Source: a bacterium
Lineage (GTDB): Bacteria; UBP14; UBA6098; JAFGQG01
Assembly: GCA_016930435.1 (NCBI GenBank)
Contig: JAFGGQ010000038.1
Coordinates: forward strand, 1 to 39,278
Direction of reading: 5' to 3'
DNA: 39,278 nt
The notes below the pieces were generated by a model that was not told where the DNA came from, searched no databases, and saw only the letters and a program-made list of their open reading frames with translations. Positions 6,741-38,775 of this stretch are shown here, in pieces (position 1 is the stretch's first letter; each line of letters starts with the position of its first letter). Position numbers and translations under genes: made by a program.

Positions 6741-9305
6741 GTGAAAGTATTAATATTTATATGTACATTTTTAGTTATTTTTATTGGCTTTTCAATGGCC
6801 TTACCGGTTGTTACTGAGGTCTATTCGGATTCGCTTGGTGGTACGGTAGGGATAAAGGTCTATGACCCAATAGGAGGTGGGCGGCATTTTGCACTATCCC
6901 CCGTAATAATAAATCTGCCAGGAGGCTGGGATGCCGGTGGATTCAGCGCACCAAACTTGAAACTTGTGGAGAATGGGATGGTTTACATTACCTTTCTTAT
7001 GCCCGGAATAACATTTGAAGGCGTTAGTACTGAAGGGGTATATGATCTCCGGGGGAAAAATTGTCTCTTTGCGCTTAAGGAGGTTATTCGATTTGCAGCC
7101 GGCAAGATAGCTGATACCGAAGGCGACTATATTACCGACCTCTTCCCGGGTGTGGTGGTTGATACTTCCAATGTGGGCATGACAATGGTTTCCAATGGGG
7201 GTAACATGGGGGTGGTCGCATTATCGATGTTCGGTCCAGAGACAGGAGGCCTGGTCGATTATATGGTAGGGAAAGAAAATCCAACCTCACCGCAGACATG
7301 CCTGCCCGATCTGGGTTTTCACGAAAGCTTTTTAGAGATAGATGGTGATGGAAACGGTTTCCCTAATGATGATTACAAGAACCCATGGTATATTGCTTAT
7401 GGTGATACACAATCAGAGATAGACCTCTCCCGTATCGCTTACGATCCGACTGCGGAAACCGATGAGTTTGGAACCAATGTGCCATGGGCGGTATTTCTGG
7501 ACGGGAACGGTAATGGATTATATGATGAAACCAGCGTTGGTGAACTCACCACTCCTGACCTTAACGGCAACGGGATCATCGATACCACAGAGGATTTTAT
7601 ATTCACCTGTCTGCAAGGCAGCAATGGTCTTTACTACTACTCTGTGCCGGTAACCAATGCACTATATTTGGAACTGGGTTCAGGAGCATGGCCGGATAGT
7701 ATCGCCACGCCCGATTCCGCGGAAGCCTTCTGGTTCCTGCGTTCCGCAGTATATCATTACGACAGTATGGCATTTTATTCTCCCAGCCTTGCTATTATGC
7801 AGGTCTTCTCAGAGGATGATCATGTTCAGGTCAGTCCGGATAAGGTGCATATTCATAATGCTTATAATGGATTCCGGCGCAATAATTTGTGGGCGAGACT
7901 TAATCCGGACAGGGCTTATATACAGGAATATTTCCCATCTATCATTGAATACCCCGATAATCCGGCGAACATTGCGCCTCTGAACTGGTTAAATATTAAT
8001 GCATGGGCAGAGCCGGAAACCACCAATGGCCAGGCGGGGACGGTAGCCGGAATACTGGAGATGGCCGACCGCACCTTTTTCAATGTCTGGGAGGACCGGA
8101 ATCTGGAACGGGTGCTCCTTATACGGCCTCCGGGCTTGCCCCCAATATATGTCAGTCTGGTGAGTCATAACGAGGAGCCACCCGGCGACCCGGATTATGC
8201 CGCTTCTCCGATTGCATTCCTGGATAACCGCTCTGAACTTCTGAACTTCGCAGATATGCTCCATGAATATAACCTGAGACTGAACTGGCAAACCGACTGG
8301 AATTTTGCAAGGGCGGTTGCGCTTTTCGATACCGGAGAGGGAACATGTGGCCTTAATATCGTTCAATATATGAAAGACTCCCTTCAATTCGAGATAGACC
8401 CACATGCCCACGAGTCCCGCTTTAACTACGCCGATGTAGCCCATTTTATCGAAGGGCTGGGAGTAATGCCTTCCCGTATAGCAGGCGGTTTTATCGCCTG
8501 GCCCTATGAAAACTCGGTCTATGATAACTTTCTATTCCCTATTATAGCAGATTCATTCCCTGGTTATAGCTGGACCTCCCTGGCACTCTGGGGAGCGGCT
8601 ACTTCACTACATATCGATGAAGATACACTGTGGGTCTCCGGAATCTGGAAACCAGCGGAGCGATACGATTTCTTCACACACAATGATGCAGCGCCATTAC
8701 CTCATATAGGGGGCTATCGAAGCACATGGACAGGAGTGAGAGATTTGCTTAACAAATCGATAAGCGGTTTACTGGAGTCGGGAAAGATCTATACGGCTAC
8801 CGTTTTCATCGCCCAGCAAGCCTTAAGTACTGAATATACTAATACCTTCAAAGAAACCCTTAATGATCTGCAGGAATTCTCCCAAACCGGATGGCTGCAA
8901 TTCAGAACGCTGGGAGAGATGTTAGACATTTGGCGGGATGAATACGACTCTATTCCCAATCTTTACTGGTTTAGCTCAGCAACCGGAGCGCCCGGACCCC
9001 TACCGTTAATGCCTGACAAAATAAATATTACATGCTATCCGAATCCATTCAATTATTCAACGGTTATCAAGCTTGAATATGGGGATTTATTTAAACCCGG
9101 AATCCTGCATGGAAGCAAAGTACTCATCAAAATATACAATCTGAATGGAAAGGTTGTTTATGAGTACTTAGATGCATACCGGTCATCAACTTTACAATAC
9201 AGTTTTATCTGGTCTCCTGATCCAGCGCTGCCCTCCGGGGTCTATCTGATAAGAGCCTCAATTAAGGATATCCAAATAAATAATAAGTTGGTGTTTTTAA
9301 AATAA
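6741..9305 (+). CDS. Secreted multidomain protein: alpha/beta-hydrolase-like + deacetylase-like domain + type IX sorting tail
   Basis: 854 aa starting at GTG 6741, with GAGAGGGAG upstream and a signal peptide (residues 1-20). Residues about 30-390 look like an alpha/beta hydrolase: an oxyanion-type NLPGGWDAGG (59-68), an elbow-like VSNGGNMG (150-157, Ser151 a candidate nucleophile), and DDHVQVSPDKVHIHN (359-373), which could carry the acid and His. Between them lie Asp/Asn/Gly-rich calcium-loop-like stretches (DGDGNGFPNDD 201-211, DGNGNGLYDE 254-263, DLNGNGIID 273-281). Residues about 450-740 resemble a polysaccharide-deacetylase (NodB-like) fold, with SLVSHNEEP (472-480) and DPHAHES (553-559). 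Residues 765-854 are a sorting tail beginning CYPNPFN and ending SGVYLIRASIKDIQINNKL. The fold calls are by motif only; substrate and true activity are unknown. Confidence 0.65.
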   Translation: MKVLIFICTFLVIFIGFSMALPVVTEVYSDSLGGTVGIKVYDPIGGGRHFALSPVIINLPGGWDAGGFSAPNLKLVENGMVYITFLMPGITFEGVSTEGVYDLRGKNCLFALKEVIRFAAGKIADTEGDYITDLFPGVVVDTSNVGMTMVSNGGNMGVVALSMFGPETGGLVDYMVGKENPTSPQTCLPDLGFHESFLEIDGDGNGFPNDDYKNPWYIAYGDTQSEIDLSRIAYDPTAETDEFGTNVPWAVFLDGNGNGLYDETSVGELTTPDLNGNGIIDTTEDFIFTCLQGSNGLYYYSVPVTNALYLELGSGAWPDSIATPDSAEAFWFLRSAVYHYDSMAFYSPSLAIMQVFSEDDHVQVSPDKVHIHNAYNGFRRNNLWARLNPDRAYIQEYFPSIIEYPDNPANIAPLNWLNINAWAEPETTNGQAGTVAGILEMADRTFFNVWEDRNLERVLLIRPPGLPPIYVSLVSHNEEPPGDPDYAASPIAFLDNRSELLNFADMLHEYNLRLNWQTDWNFARAVALFDTGEGTCGLNIVQYMKDSLQFEIDPHAHESRFNYADVAHFIEGLGVMPSRIAGGFIAWPYENSVYDNFLFPIIADSFPGYSWTSLALWGAATSLHIDEDTLWVSGIWKPAERYDFFTHNDAAPLPHIGGYRSTWTGVRDLLNKSISGLLESGKIYTATVFIAQQALSTEYTNTFKETLNDLQEFSQTGWLQFRTLGEMLDIWRDEYDSIPNLYWFSSATGAPGPLPLMPDKINITCYPNPFNYSTVIKLEYGDLFKPGILHGSKVLIKIYNLNGKVVYEYLDAYRSSTLQYSFIWSPDPALPSGVYLIRASIKDIQINNKLVFLK

Positions 9306-35605: not shown

Positions 35606-35917
35606 TCCTTGTTAAATTATGGTCTTCATAAACTTCGGTGTAGCAGAGTTATGTTCAATAATACATTTATTATCACGGATGGGGATGGAAATGGGTTATA
35701 ATCTCCTTCTACTATTATCGGATAACGAGATTTTGTAATGGACAATGCCGGTTCCGATAAAAAACTATCCTAATATAATACCTTCAAAATCTTTTGCAAT
35801 TAGAATCTGAACATAATGGAATTTGAACTTGTTTCGAATAGAAGAAAAATCCGGCTGGTTTTTATGAGCAACCACTCAACAGATGAACAGTTGACCTTAA
35901 GCAAGGCAGGTTCGGCG
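35606..35917. other. Non-coding gap left of the CRISPR-like remnant
   Basis: 312 nt upstream of the malic enzyme gene. AT-rich, no gene seen. The rest of the gap (to 36540) holds the features listed next. Confidence 0.5.
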
Positions 35918-36028
35918 ATGAAGGATTTTATCCTTCATAAGCCAACCCACGCACCCGCGAAGGGTATTGCGACTTAATCTCGGTGCAGTTGCCCCGAGCT
36001 TTTAGGAGTTTGCCGTTCGTCAAACTCC
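35918..36028. repeat. Row of hairpins in the malic enzyme-mutase gap
   Basis: Perfect hairpin ATGAAGGA/TCCTTCAT (35918-35925, 35931-35938; loop TTTTA). Then the CRISPR-repeat-like sequence (35943-35973), itself with ACCC/GGGT dyad symmetry. Then CTCGG/CCGAG (about 35979-35999). Then GGAGTTTG/CAAACTCC (36005-36012, 36021-36028; loop of 8). Four hairpins in 111 nt is far above what the rest of the window shows. Confidence 0.7.
35943..35973 (-). CRISPR. Solitary, degenerate type I-C-like CRISPR repeat (remnant)
   Basis: Read on the minus strand it starts GTCGCAATACCC at 35973, continues TTCGCGGGTGCGTGG and ends GTTG at 35943. Type I-C repeats begin GTCGC, have a short G/C dyad in the middle, and end GTGGATTGAAAC or similar. 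The match breaks at the 3' end (GGC in place of AAAC), as in many leader-distal terminal repeats. Only one copy is convincing and no regular spacers are present, so this is a relic and not an array. It lies on the same strand and 92 nt beyond the Cas3-like fragment. Confidence 0.5.
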
Positions 36029-36064
36029 CCTACTGGAATTTTTGTTAGTTTCAAACCTGCCGCG

Positions 36065-36235
36065 TTAGTAATACTGTGTCAGCCTGGCAAGCCTTTCAAG
36101 TTCAGTGACAGGCTTATCCCGTTTAAAAAAGCGTAATACGAATTCAGCCGTTCCGTCTAAATGTTGTTTTATGGACTGTTTCCGATCCGAATTGTCTTTG
36201 GAAACATGGGCGAGATAATCATTAAATTTGGCCAT
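36065..36235 (-). pseudogene. cas3: Truncated Cas3-like HD nuclease N-terminus
   Basis: 56 codons from ATG 36235 (an in-frame TTG at 36262 is possible). The peptide begins MAKFNDYLAHVSKDNSDRK and continues QSIKQHLDGTAEFVLRFF. This resembles the start of Cas3'' HD domains, which read roughly Y-x-AH, polar turn, Q-S/T-[LIV]-x-x-HL-x-G-T/V-A. His and the following helix are present, but the frame stops after LERLARLTQYY, just before the place where the HD dyad (LLHDIGK-type) should come. A complete Cas3 is 700-800 residues. No other cas gene follows. Taken with the adjacent I-C-like repeat it is best read as the 5' stub of a deleted type I-C locus. A short unrelated ORF cannot be excluded. Confidence 0.5.
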
Positions 36236-36262
36236 TACTTCGCACCCCCGATTTCTTACCAA

Positions 36263-36540
36263 ATATGTTTTAAGGATTTATTCTCAATAAAACCCCAAAA
36301 TAGGTGATGTCAAGTAGTAATATACTCCTAATTCCTACCAAAAATTACGGGCTGCTTGAATCTTAATGCCATCGCTATACTTCTATACGGCTTATCATTT
36401 TTTCTTGATTAATATTCGGTACTATATATATTTGATGTTAAACTGAATGATCGGCTTAAATTTTGGGCAAAAAATGGCATTCATATCAATACAATATATA
36501 TTAAAATATTCCGGTTTATATTCAGGGAAGGGAGTTAATC
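36263..36540. other. Non-coding region upstream of the acyl-CoA mutase
   Basis: AT-rich, 278 nt. I see the ribosome site AAGGGAG near 36526-36532 but no clear promoter, terminator or cobalamin riboswitch. Confidence 0.45.
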
Positions 36541-38208
36541 ATGTTCGATCCCCAAAGCATAGATAAGATAAAAAAGGCCCGGGATGCCTGGGCGAAGGAA
36601 TTTGATGGTACCCGTCAGCAGAAGATGAAATTTATTACGGTTTCCGGAGAACCTATCGATCCGCTCTATACTCCGCTGGAGCTTCAGGGTCACGATTTCA
36701 TGGAGAAGATTGGTTTCCCCGGTCAATACCCATACACCCGGGGCGTCTATCCCAGCATGTACCGTGGCCGCCACTGGACTATGCGCCAGTTCTCCGGGAT
36801 GGGGTCTGCCAAAGACACCAATCAGCGTTACCATTATCTCCTTAAGCATGGCCAAACAGGGCTGTCCGTCGCCTTCGATATGCCCACCCTGATGGGCTAT
36901 GACTCCGACCATGTCTTCTCACACGGGGAAGTAGGCAAATGCGGGGTTACGGTGGATTCCCTGAAGGATATGGAAATCATCTTCGACGGCATCCCGCTCG
37001 ATAAAATATCCACCTCCATGACCATTAACGCCCCCGCCTCTATTCTGTTGGCAATGTATATCGTGGTAGGCGAGAAGCAGGGATTAGATCAAAATATATT
37101 GACGGGTACGCTTCAAAATGATATACTAAAAGAGTATATCGCACAGAAAGAATGGATATATCCGCCGGAACCATCAATGCGTCTGATTGTAGATACTATC
37201 GAATACTGTACTAATTACGTTCCCAAGTGGAACACAATATCCATATCGGGTTATCATATCCGGGAGGCAGGTGCCACCGCCGTTCAGGAACTTGCTTTCA
37301 CGCTCGCCGACGGATTCGCGTATGTTGAGGCGGGAATAGAGCGGGGGCTCGATGTGGACGATTTTGCGCCCCGCCTTTCGCATTTTTTCAACTCGCACCT
37401 CGATTTTTTCGAGGAGATCGCTAAATATCGCGCTGCCAGAAGGATTTGGGCCAGAAGGATGAAGGAAAAATACGGGGCAAAAAATCCAAAATCGTTGCTT
37501 ATGCGTTTCCATACCCAGACCGCAGGGTGCAGTCTTACCGCCCAGCAACCATATAATAATATCGTACGCACCGCTATACAGGGCCTCGCTGCGGCGATCG
37601 GCGGAACACAAAGCCTGCATACAAACTCGATGGACGAAACATACGCACTTCCATCCGAGGAAGCGGTAAAGATCGCCCTCCGCACCCAGCAGTTGATCGC
37701 TTACGAGACCGGGGTTACCAATACCATTGACCCACTGGCGGGTTCCTACTTCGTAGAAAAGCTCACCGACCGTATGGAAGAAGAAGCTGAGGCTTATTTT
37801 GAAGAGATCGATAAGAGGGGGGGAGTAATCCCGGCGATCGAGGAGGGTTATTTTCAACGTGAGATCGCCAGGGCCGCCTACCGCTATCAGCAGGCTATCG
37901 AGACCGGAGATCGTACCGTGGTGGGAGTGAACCGCTTTGCGGAAGAGGAAGAAAATGTAAAGATCCCCCTGCTCAAAATCGACGAGTCCGTGGAGTTGGA
38001 CCAGGTCGAAGCGCTGGAGAAAATCCGGAAAGCTCGGGATAATGATGCGGTTAAAAGGAGTCTGGATAAACTAAGGTTGATCGCTGAGGGCACCGAAAAC
38101 ACCATGCCGGCTACTATTGAATGCGTCCGGAATTACTGCACCGAGGGCGAAATTTGCGATATATTCCGTGAAGTTTTTGGTGAATACCAGGAAAAAAGCA
38201 TTATTTAA
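36541..38208 (+). CDS. B12-dependent acyl-CoA mutase large subunit (methylmalonyl-CoA mutase family, isobutyryl-CoA-mutase-like active site)
   Basis: 555 aa, the catalytic TIM-barrel subunit of a split mutase; the B12 domain is the separate gene at 38377. Family motifs: [16 protein letters not shown] (75-90), [15 protein letters not shown] (109-123), NGTL-type [17 protein letters not shown] (189-205), [18 protein letters not shown] and [13 protein letters not shown]. Methylmalonyl-CoA mutase has Tyr89 and Arg207 (Propionibacterium numbering) contacting the carboxylate; isobutyryl-CoA mutase has Phe80 and Gln198. Here the equivalent positions are Phe84 and Gln202, the same 118 residues apart. 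Size (about 560 plus 132) also fits IcmA/IcmB. Substrate may thus be isobutyryl-CoA/butyryl-CoA; methylmalonyl-CoA cannot be excluded, as automatic annotation would suggest. No meaB or epimerase gene follows in the window. Confidence 0.88.
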
Positions 38209-38361
38209 TTGATGATTGACGATTGTGGGAAGTAAAAATATAGTATGGATTACTACAATCGTGTTCTTTGAAAAACTCAACATTTTCATTTAAATCAGCT
38301 TATTCTTTTCTGTCTTTTGTTTTTGTCAATCGCTAATCATCTGTTGTCATTCGTCAATTAA
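38205..38361. repeat. 157-nt element with imperfect inverted ends between the two mutase genes
   Basis: It starts TTAATTGA (38205-38212), overlapping the stop of the large-subunit gene, and ends TCAATTAA (38354-38361). Inside, GATTGAC-like words on the left (ATGATTGACGATTG) face CAATCGCTAATCAT on the right with 12 of 14 matches as an inverted pair. A nested GATTGT (38221-38226) / ACAATC (38255-38260) can also pair. No coding potential. It resembles a small non-autonomous repeat or a degenerate heptamer repeat. Confidence 0.45.
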
Positions 38362-38376
38362 AACCTGGAGTATAAA

Positions 38377-38775
38377 ATGAAAAGAAAAATCAGAATATTG
38401 TTGGCAAAGCCCGGCTTGGATGGGCATGACCGGGGGATCAAAGTTATTGCAAATGCTTTACGAGATGCAGGTATGGAGATCATCTATTCGGGCCTCCGTC
38501 AAACCCCTGAAGCCATCGTAAAGGCCGCTATTCAGGAGGATGTGGACGCTATAGGAATGAGTATTCTATCAGGCGCTCACATGACCCTCTTCCCGGCTGT
38601 CCTGAAAATCCTTAAGGAAATGGGAGCGGATGACATAGTGCTATTCGGCGGGGGGATTATTCCCGAGGAGGATATTCAGACCTTAAAGGAAATGGGTGTA
38701 GGCGCACTATTTACACCGGGTACATCTACACAGGAGATTGTAAAATATATCCGGGAATCCATTATGAAGGAATAG
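38377..38775 (+). CDS. Cobalamin-binding small subunit of acyl-CoA mutase
   Basis: 132 aa Rossmann-like B12 domain. [11 protein letters not shown] (10-20) is the base-off/His-on motif DxHxxG, with His17 as the lower cobalt ligand; SILSGAH (about 63-69) and FGGGIIP (about 85-91) bind the nucleotide tail. Together with the 36541 product it forms an alpha2beta2-type split mutase, as in isobutyryl-CoA mutase and archaeal/other methylmalonyl-CoA mutases. Separated from the large subunit by 168 nt that contain the repeat at 38205. Ribosome site CCTGGAG precedes ATG 38377. Start is clear from homology ([15 protein letters not shown]). Confidence 0.93.

Follow-up and report, generated by a model that had tools for sequence, protein, structure and literature searches.

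The window, by which we mean the whole 39,278-nucleotide stretch of DNA analysed here, carries a gene pair for a two-subunit, AdoCbl-dependent acyl-CoA mutase of the Phe/Gln type, which probably interconverts isobutyryl-CoA and butyryl-CoA; both the substrate and the direction of the reaction are what we infer. That the enzyme is not a methylmalonyl-CoA mutase (MCM) is well supported by four lines of evidence, namely its diagnostic residues, its position in a tree, the distribution of methylmalonyl-CoA epimerase and the neighbours of related genes. The initial annotation, which had read the enzyme as isobutyryl-CoA-type rather than as an MCM, is supported. The chemistry of the reaction is already known, and the result is a corrected annotation together with a clean genomic rule, in an uncultured lineage. 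The features of the gene pair are listed in Table 1.

Table 1. Features of the mutase gene pair, with positions in the window.
Feature	Position	Strand	Basis
Large (substrate-binding) subunit, AdoCbl-dependent acyl-CoA mutase, IcmA-like, 555 aa	36541..38208	+	ORF; TIGR00641; PDB relatives HCM, MCM, IcmF; tree
Small B12-binding subunit, IcmB-like, 132 aa	38377..38775	+	ORF; TIGR00640
Phe84 codon, place of MCM Tyr89	36790..36792	+	sequence; alignment
Gln202 codon, place of MCM Arg207	37144..37146	+	sequence; alignment
Leu117 codon, third position separating F/Q from Y/R	36889..36891	+	F/Q and Y/R sequence comparison

The small-subunit gene lies 168 bp downstream of the large-subunit gene. The large subunit matches TIGR00641 with 783 bits (cut-off 303.8) and PF01642 with 765 bits, the small subunit TIGR00640 with 177 bits (cut-off 57.45) and PF02310 with 89 bits, and the presence of both a mutase barrel and a B12-binding domain places the pair among the AdoCbl-dependent acyl-CoA mutases of the MCM superfamily. 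The fold is not in doubt, since the window protein is about 50% identical to solved structures. TIGR00641 and TIGR00640 are subfamily models, and no equivalog model scored the gene pair above its cut-off. The fused IcmF form was not matched, the window having two separate ORFs and a score of 367 bits with the IcmF equivalog (cut-off 1500). The split into 555 and 132 residues had been offered as evidence for an IcmA/IcmB pair, an argument that does not hold because MCM-type enzymes with Tyr and Arg are split as well (that of Ilyobacter, and one with a 514-residue large subunit on contig C31 of the window's own genome), so that the architecture does not discriminate. Neither a MeaB nor an adenosyltransferase gene adjoins the mutase locus, and around the mutase gene in the window there is no β-oxidation gene and no valine gene. 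A search of the window against Rfam for a B12 riboswitch returned nothing at the gathering threshold. The stretch of about 0.9 kb upstream of the mutase (window positions 35606-36540) holds no convincing gene and no Rfam match.

In MCM, Tyr89 and Arg207 bind the free carboxylate of the substrate. This pair is not found in the window protein, where direct reading and alignment to the Propionibacterium shermanii MCM place Phe84 and Gln202 at the two positions, exactly as had been proposed. The IcmF structure in the PDB (4xc6) has Phe and Gln at the equivalent places (chain positions 618 and 762) and Leu at the place of 117, and the window protein thus has the residue pair of an isobutyryl-CoA mutase. 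We refer to enzymes with Phe and Gln at positions 84 and 202 (window numbering) as F/Q and to those with Tyr and Arg at the same places as Y/R. Among the 80 nearest genome homologues 77 are F/Q and three are Y/R, proportions that mean little because the sample was chosen by similarity. When 28 F/Q and 31 Y/R sequences were compared, the two sets had no residue in common at only five of about 500 positions (84, 117, 202, 203 and 204), and position 117 is Leu or Ile in the F/Q enzymes versus Gln or His in the Y/R enzymes. Judged from these sequences, the F/Q pair is a class marker and not a product of chance. By itself the pair is no proof, because simple replacement of these residues gave no active converted enzymes (review PMC2847961). 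The 118-residue spacing between the two residues, also cited in the initial annotation, is present, but it says nothing about the substrate because it is identical in MCM (207-89).

A tree was computed with columns 84, 111, 117 and 202 removed. In this tree, whose bootstrap was not fully settled, the 28 F/Q rows cluster as a single group (93/88) close to 2-hydroxyisobutyryl-CoA mutase (HCM), Xaut_5043 and one Ile/Gln row (wider group 80/78). The window protein joins the F/Q mutase of genome G008 (100/98) and sequences of the Zixiibacteriota type (100/99), while P. shermanii MCM, human MCM and the Y/R rows stand elsewhere, apart from the F/Q clade. A placement among two-subunit MCMs that share Phe and Gln, named beforehand as the outcome that would count against an isobutyryl-CoA-type enzyme, was looked for in this way, and the F/Q enzymes came out as a separate clade. 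Xaut_5043, which we take to be a likely dedicated pivalyl-CoA mutase (PcmA), is 41% identical to the window protein and has Leu and Asn at the two diagnostic places, a pair that the window protein does not share. No characterised enzyme lies inside the F/Q clade in this tree, whose reference sequences include P. shermanii and human MCM, HCM, IcmF and Xaut_5043, and the nearest characterised enzyme is HCM. In a quick tree, HCM and a Haloterrigena F/Q row fell inside the F/Q group (99 SH-aLRT); HCM is either sister to this group or nested within it.

That the window enzyme is itself a 2-hydroxyisobutyryl-CoA mutase is nevertheless scarcely credible. HCM is its best match in the PDB (4r3u) and HCMs branch beside the F/Q clade, but in the HCMs of our set position 84 is Ile (or Val) and position 111 is Asp (Ile90 and Asp117 in HCM numbering), against Phe and Ala in the window protein, which lies outside the HCM clade.

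The branch leading to IcmF is very long, uncertain in its placement and far from the window protein, and the F/Q pair of IcmF may for this reason have arisen independently. The Streptomyces plasmids that we examined for a characterised IcmA carry Y/R mutases and one IcmF-like gene. A search of 29 genomes with the IcmF model gave no match, but neither did the controls, so that this result is no evidence of absence. The F/Q clade occurs in many bacterial phyla, where its members are mostly labelled MCM. We suggest only tentatively that it could be an ancient non-fused acyl-CoA mutase lineage from which, or beside which, HCM arose, with Phe/Gln having evolved independently of IcmF and with some members perhaps using acyl-CoAs beyond the mutase substrates recognised so far.

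Several mutases with other residues were encountered. A Clostridiales genome holds two extra mutases with Leu and Ser (L223, G031:C79:5662-7293, and L224, G031:C96:10597-12225; motifs TVRQLAGFGG and LMETVGSGPE), which form a fully supported pair of their own in the tree. On a plasmid of Sphingobium TomTYG71 (L231:3971-7085), a mutase with Val at both places and Glu at 111 is followed by a B12 subunit and MeaB and has a cytochrome P450 gene upstream; from its sequence it is a candidate for a further acyl-CoA mutase subtype. A plasmid of Sinorhizobium sp. K101 (L230:2533-5686) encodes an HCM-like mutase in which Val replaces Ile at 84 and position 111 is Asp, in an operon with a B12 subunit, MeaB, an enoyl-CoA hydratase and an AMP-binding enzyme. 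An Ile/Gln mutase (L222, G039:C16:17705-19357) is otherwise unlike HCM, with an HPTLT motif and a long branch.

The distribution of methylmalonyl-CoA epimerase was analysed across 50 genomes of many phyla, the presence of an F/Q mutase being the sole criterion of choice; a Y/R profile served to find the mutases and TIGR03081 to find the epimerase, and the diagnostic residues were read from the DNA. The epimerase is present in all 42 genomes that have a full Y/R mutase versus one of the eight that do not (Fisher p = 8e-8, genomes being treated as independent in this and the other epimerase tests of this paragraph, which is only roughly true). One of these eight, G047, carries a partial mutase whose residue 84 is Tyr; if it is classed as Y/R, p becomes 3e-6. 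The exception, G025, has an epimerase without a full Y/R mutase, and its assembly may be incomplete. At closer range, 25 of 46 Y/R mutases have an epimerase gene no more than 3 kb away, versus none of 52 F/Q mutases (p = 5e-11).

For 39 F/Q and 19 Y/R loci from the same genome set, one Y/R locus being shortened by its contig, we compared the 6 kb to either side of the mutase. β-Oxidation genes are found in 15 of the 39 F/Q flanks and in none of the 19 Y/R flanks (Fisher p = 0.001), versus the reverse for the epimerase (0/39 and 11/19; Fisher p = 3e-7) and, nearly so, for a carboxylase (1/39 and 8/19; Fisher p = 3e-4). The clearest cases of β-oxidation neighbours are L029, L023 and L017; at L029 the row reads thiolase, hydroxybutyryl-CoA dehydrogenase, crotonase, two acyl-CoA dehydrogenases, adenosyltransferase, F/Q mutase, B12 subunit and a thiolase-like gene. 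VorB makes isobutyryl-CoA from 2-ketoisovalerate. In Carboxydothermus islandicus (L012) the F/Q mutase lies beside VorB (NF005507, 549 bits, cut-off 399) and a Glu/Leu/Phe/Val-type dehydrogenase; VorB also occurs near two Y/R mutases, however, so it is suggestive but not specific, and we dropped it as an F/Q marker. A number of loci (L014, L018, L019, L021, L022, L025 and others from Bacteroidota/Ignavibacteria) have the F/Q mutase near a MutL-like gene and show no metabolic neighbours.

The window's own genome holds exactly two PF01642 genes in a profile search. The second is a Y/R mutase (C31:2412-3956), and its gene row comprises biotin carboxylase, biotin carrier, Y/R mutase and methylmalonyl-CoA epimerase. 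Epimerase and MeaB genes, suggested at the outset as something to look for elsewhere in the genome, were each found once: the single epimerase adjoins the C31 mutase and not the window mutase, and the one MeaB gene is on contig C131, with the gene of a second B12-binding subunit directly after it and the two flanked by Etf/NADH-dehydrogenase-type genes on one side and an Rnf operon on the other (L102, C131:10000-29000; 7563-8959). The C131 B12 subunit may serve the C31 mutase, since the latter has no adjacent B12 subunit. The genome already has a separate, complete methylmalonyl-CoA module. An ordinary MCM, present as a second isozyme in spite of Phe/Gln, is the likely outcome of automatic annotation, and it accords with about 50% identity to MCM and with the best generic family names; we nonetheless consider it very unlikely, given that the Tyr/Arg pair is absent, that the protein stands apart from the MCMs in the tree and that the window mutase has no genomic link to an epimerase or a propionyl-CoA carboxylase, both of which go with the C31 mutase in this genome.

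The same arrangement is seen in the window's phylum, a small one, which we sampled with 12 genomes at least 85% complete. A mutase occurs in six of the 12, and an epimerase in exactly those six. Each of the Y/R mutases of G000, G007, G009, G010 and G011 adjoins an epimerase. In G008 an F/Q pair is 82% and 81% identical to the window subunits, with one extra gene between its two genes and no epimerase beside it; the epimerase adjoins a second mutase, which is cut off by the contig end. No epimerase lies next to an F/Q mutase in this phylum.

On the preferred reading, the 555-residue subunit would form the substrate barrel and the 132-residue subunit would hold B12, with the single MeaB on C131 presumably loading the cofactor. 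Homolysis of the Co-C bond would generate a radical, upon which the carbonyl of the CoA thioester would shift between neighbouring carbons. With Phe84 and Gln202 replacing the carboxylate-binding Tyr and Arg, the pocket would be expected to take a methyl group rather than a carboxylate. Isobutyryl-CoA and butyryl-CoA are our best guess as the most economical substrate pair, other short branched acyl-CoAs being possible, and their interconversion would link the breakdown of valine or isobutyrate to straight-chain β-oxidation. In the 325 kb of the window's own genome that were looked over for metabolic genes, C15 encodes VorB- and VorA-like proteins, and C131 carries four acyl-CoA dehydrogenases together with Etf and Rnf. 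Also on C131 is a cluster (L103:4416-10882) of thiolase, a DUF35-like gene, acyl-CoA carboxylase beta, enoyl-CoA hydratase, biotin carboxylase and biotin carrier, which looks like a cluster for leucine/isovalerate degradation.

A Phe/Gln mutase acting on a different non-dicarboxylic acyl-CoA, such as isovaleryl- or pivalyl-CoA, a 2-methyl-branched or a longer acyl-CoA, appears unlikely to us. The leucine-type carboxylase cluster on C131 would suit it, as would the breadth of an F/Q clade without a characterised member in the tree and the activity of IcmF on pivalyl- and isovaleryl-CoA (PMC10481361). Against it stand the short-chain β-oxidation genes, including hydroxybutyryl-CoA dehydrogenase, that often flank F/Q mutases, as well as the Leu/Asn pair of Xaut_5043, the likely PcmA. 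An isobutyryl-CoA/butyryl-CoA mutase would move the window gene from propionate metabolism, to which automatic annotation would assign it, to what is probably butyrate, isobutyrate and valine metabolism. Positions 84 and 202 (with 117) and the epimerase neighbour provide a simple rule that separates the two enzymes across many phyla, and should assays bear this out, many genes now labelled 'methylmalonyl-CoA mutase', and the carbon flows deduced from such labels, would need correcting, including those in uncultured anaerobes.

Misannotation as MCM is a known problem for isobutyryl-CoA mutases of the IcmF form (PMC7764203). A putative isobutyryl-CoA mutase cluster of large and small mutase subunits, adenosyltransferase and MeaB occurs in Syntrophothermus lipocalidus, a syntrophic isobutyrate degrader that isomerises this acid (Slip_0757-0760; PMC5017805). 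Compared by gene make-up, this cluster contains the same parts as the F/Q loci L035 and L037, whereas the window locus has no MeaB or adenosyltransferase beside the mutase. IcmF of Cupriavidus metallidurans (4xc6) resembles the window enzyme in its Phe/Gln pair, Leu at 117, fold family and cofactor, but unites B12 domain, G domain and mutase in a single fused chain where the window enzyme has two subunits. HcmA (4r3u; Methylibium, L085) is the closest solved structure and shares the two-subunit split, Gln at 202 and a neighbouring branch; it differs in having Ile rather than Phe at 84 and Asp rather than Ala at 111, HCM having Ile, Leu and Gln at 84, 117 and 202. The MCMs (P. shermanii 1req, human 2xij and the genome's own C31 enzyme) share the superfamily, about 50% identity and TIGR00641 with the window enzyme, but carry Tyr/Arg, belong to a different clade and are tied to epimerase and acyl-CoA carboxylase.
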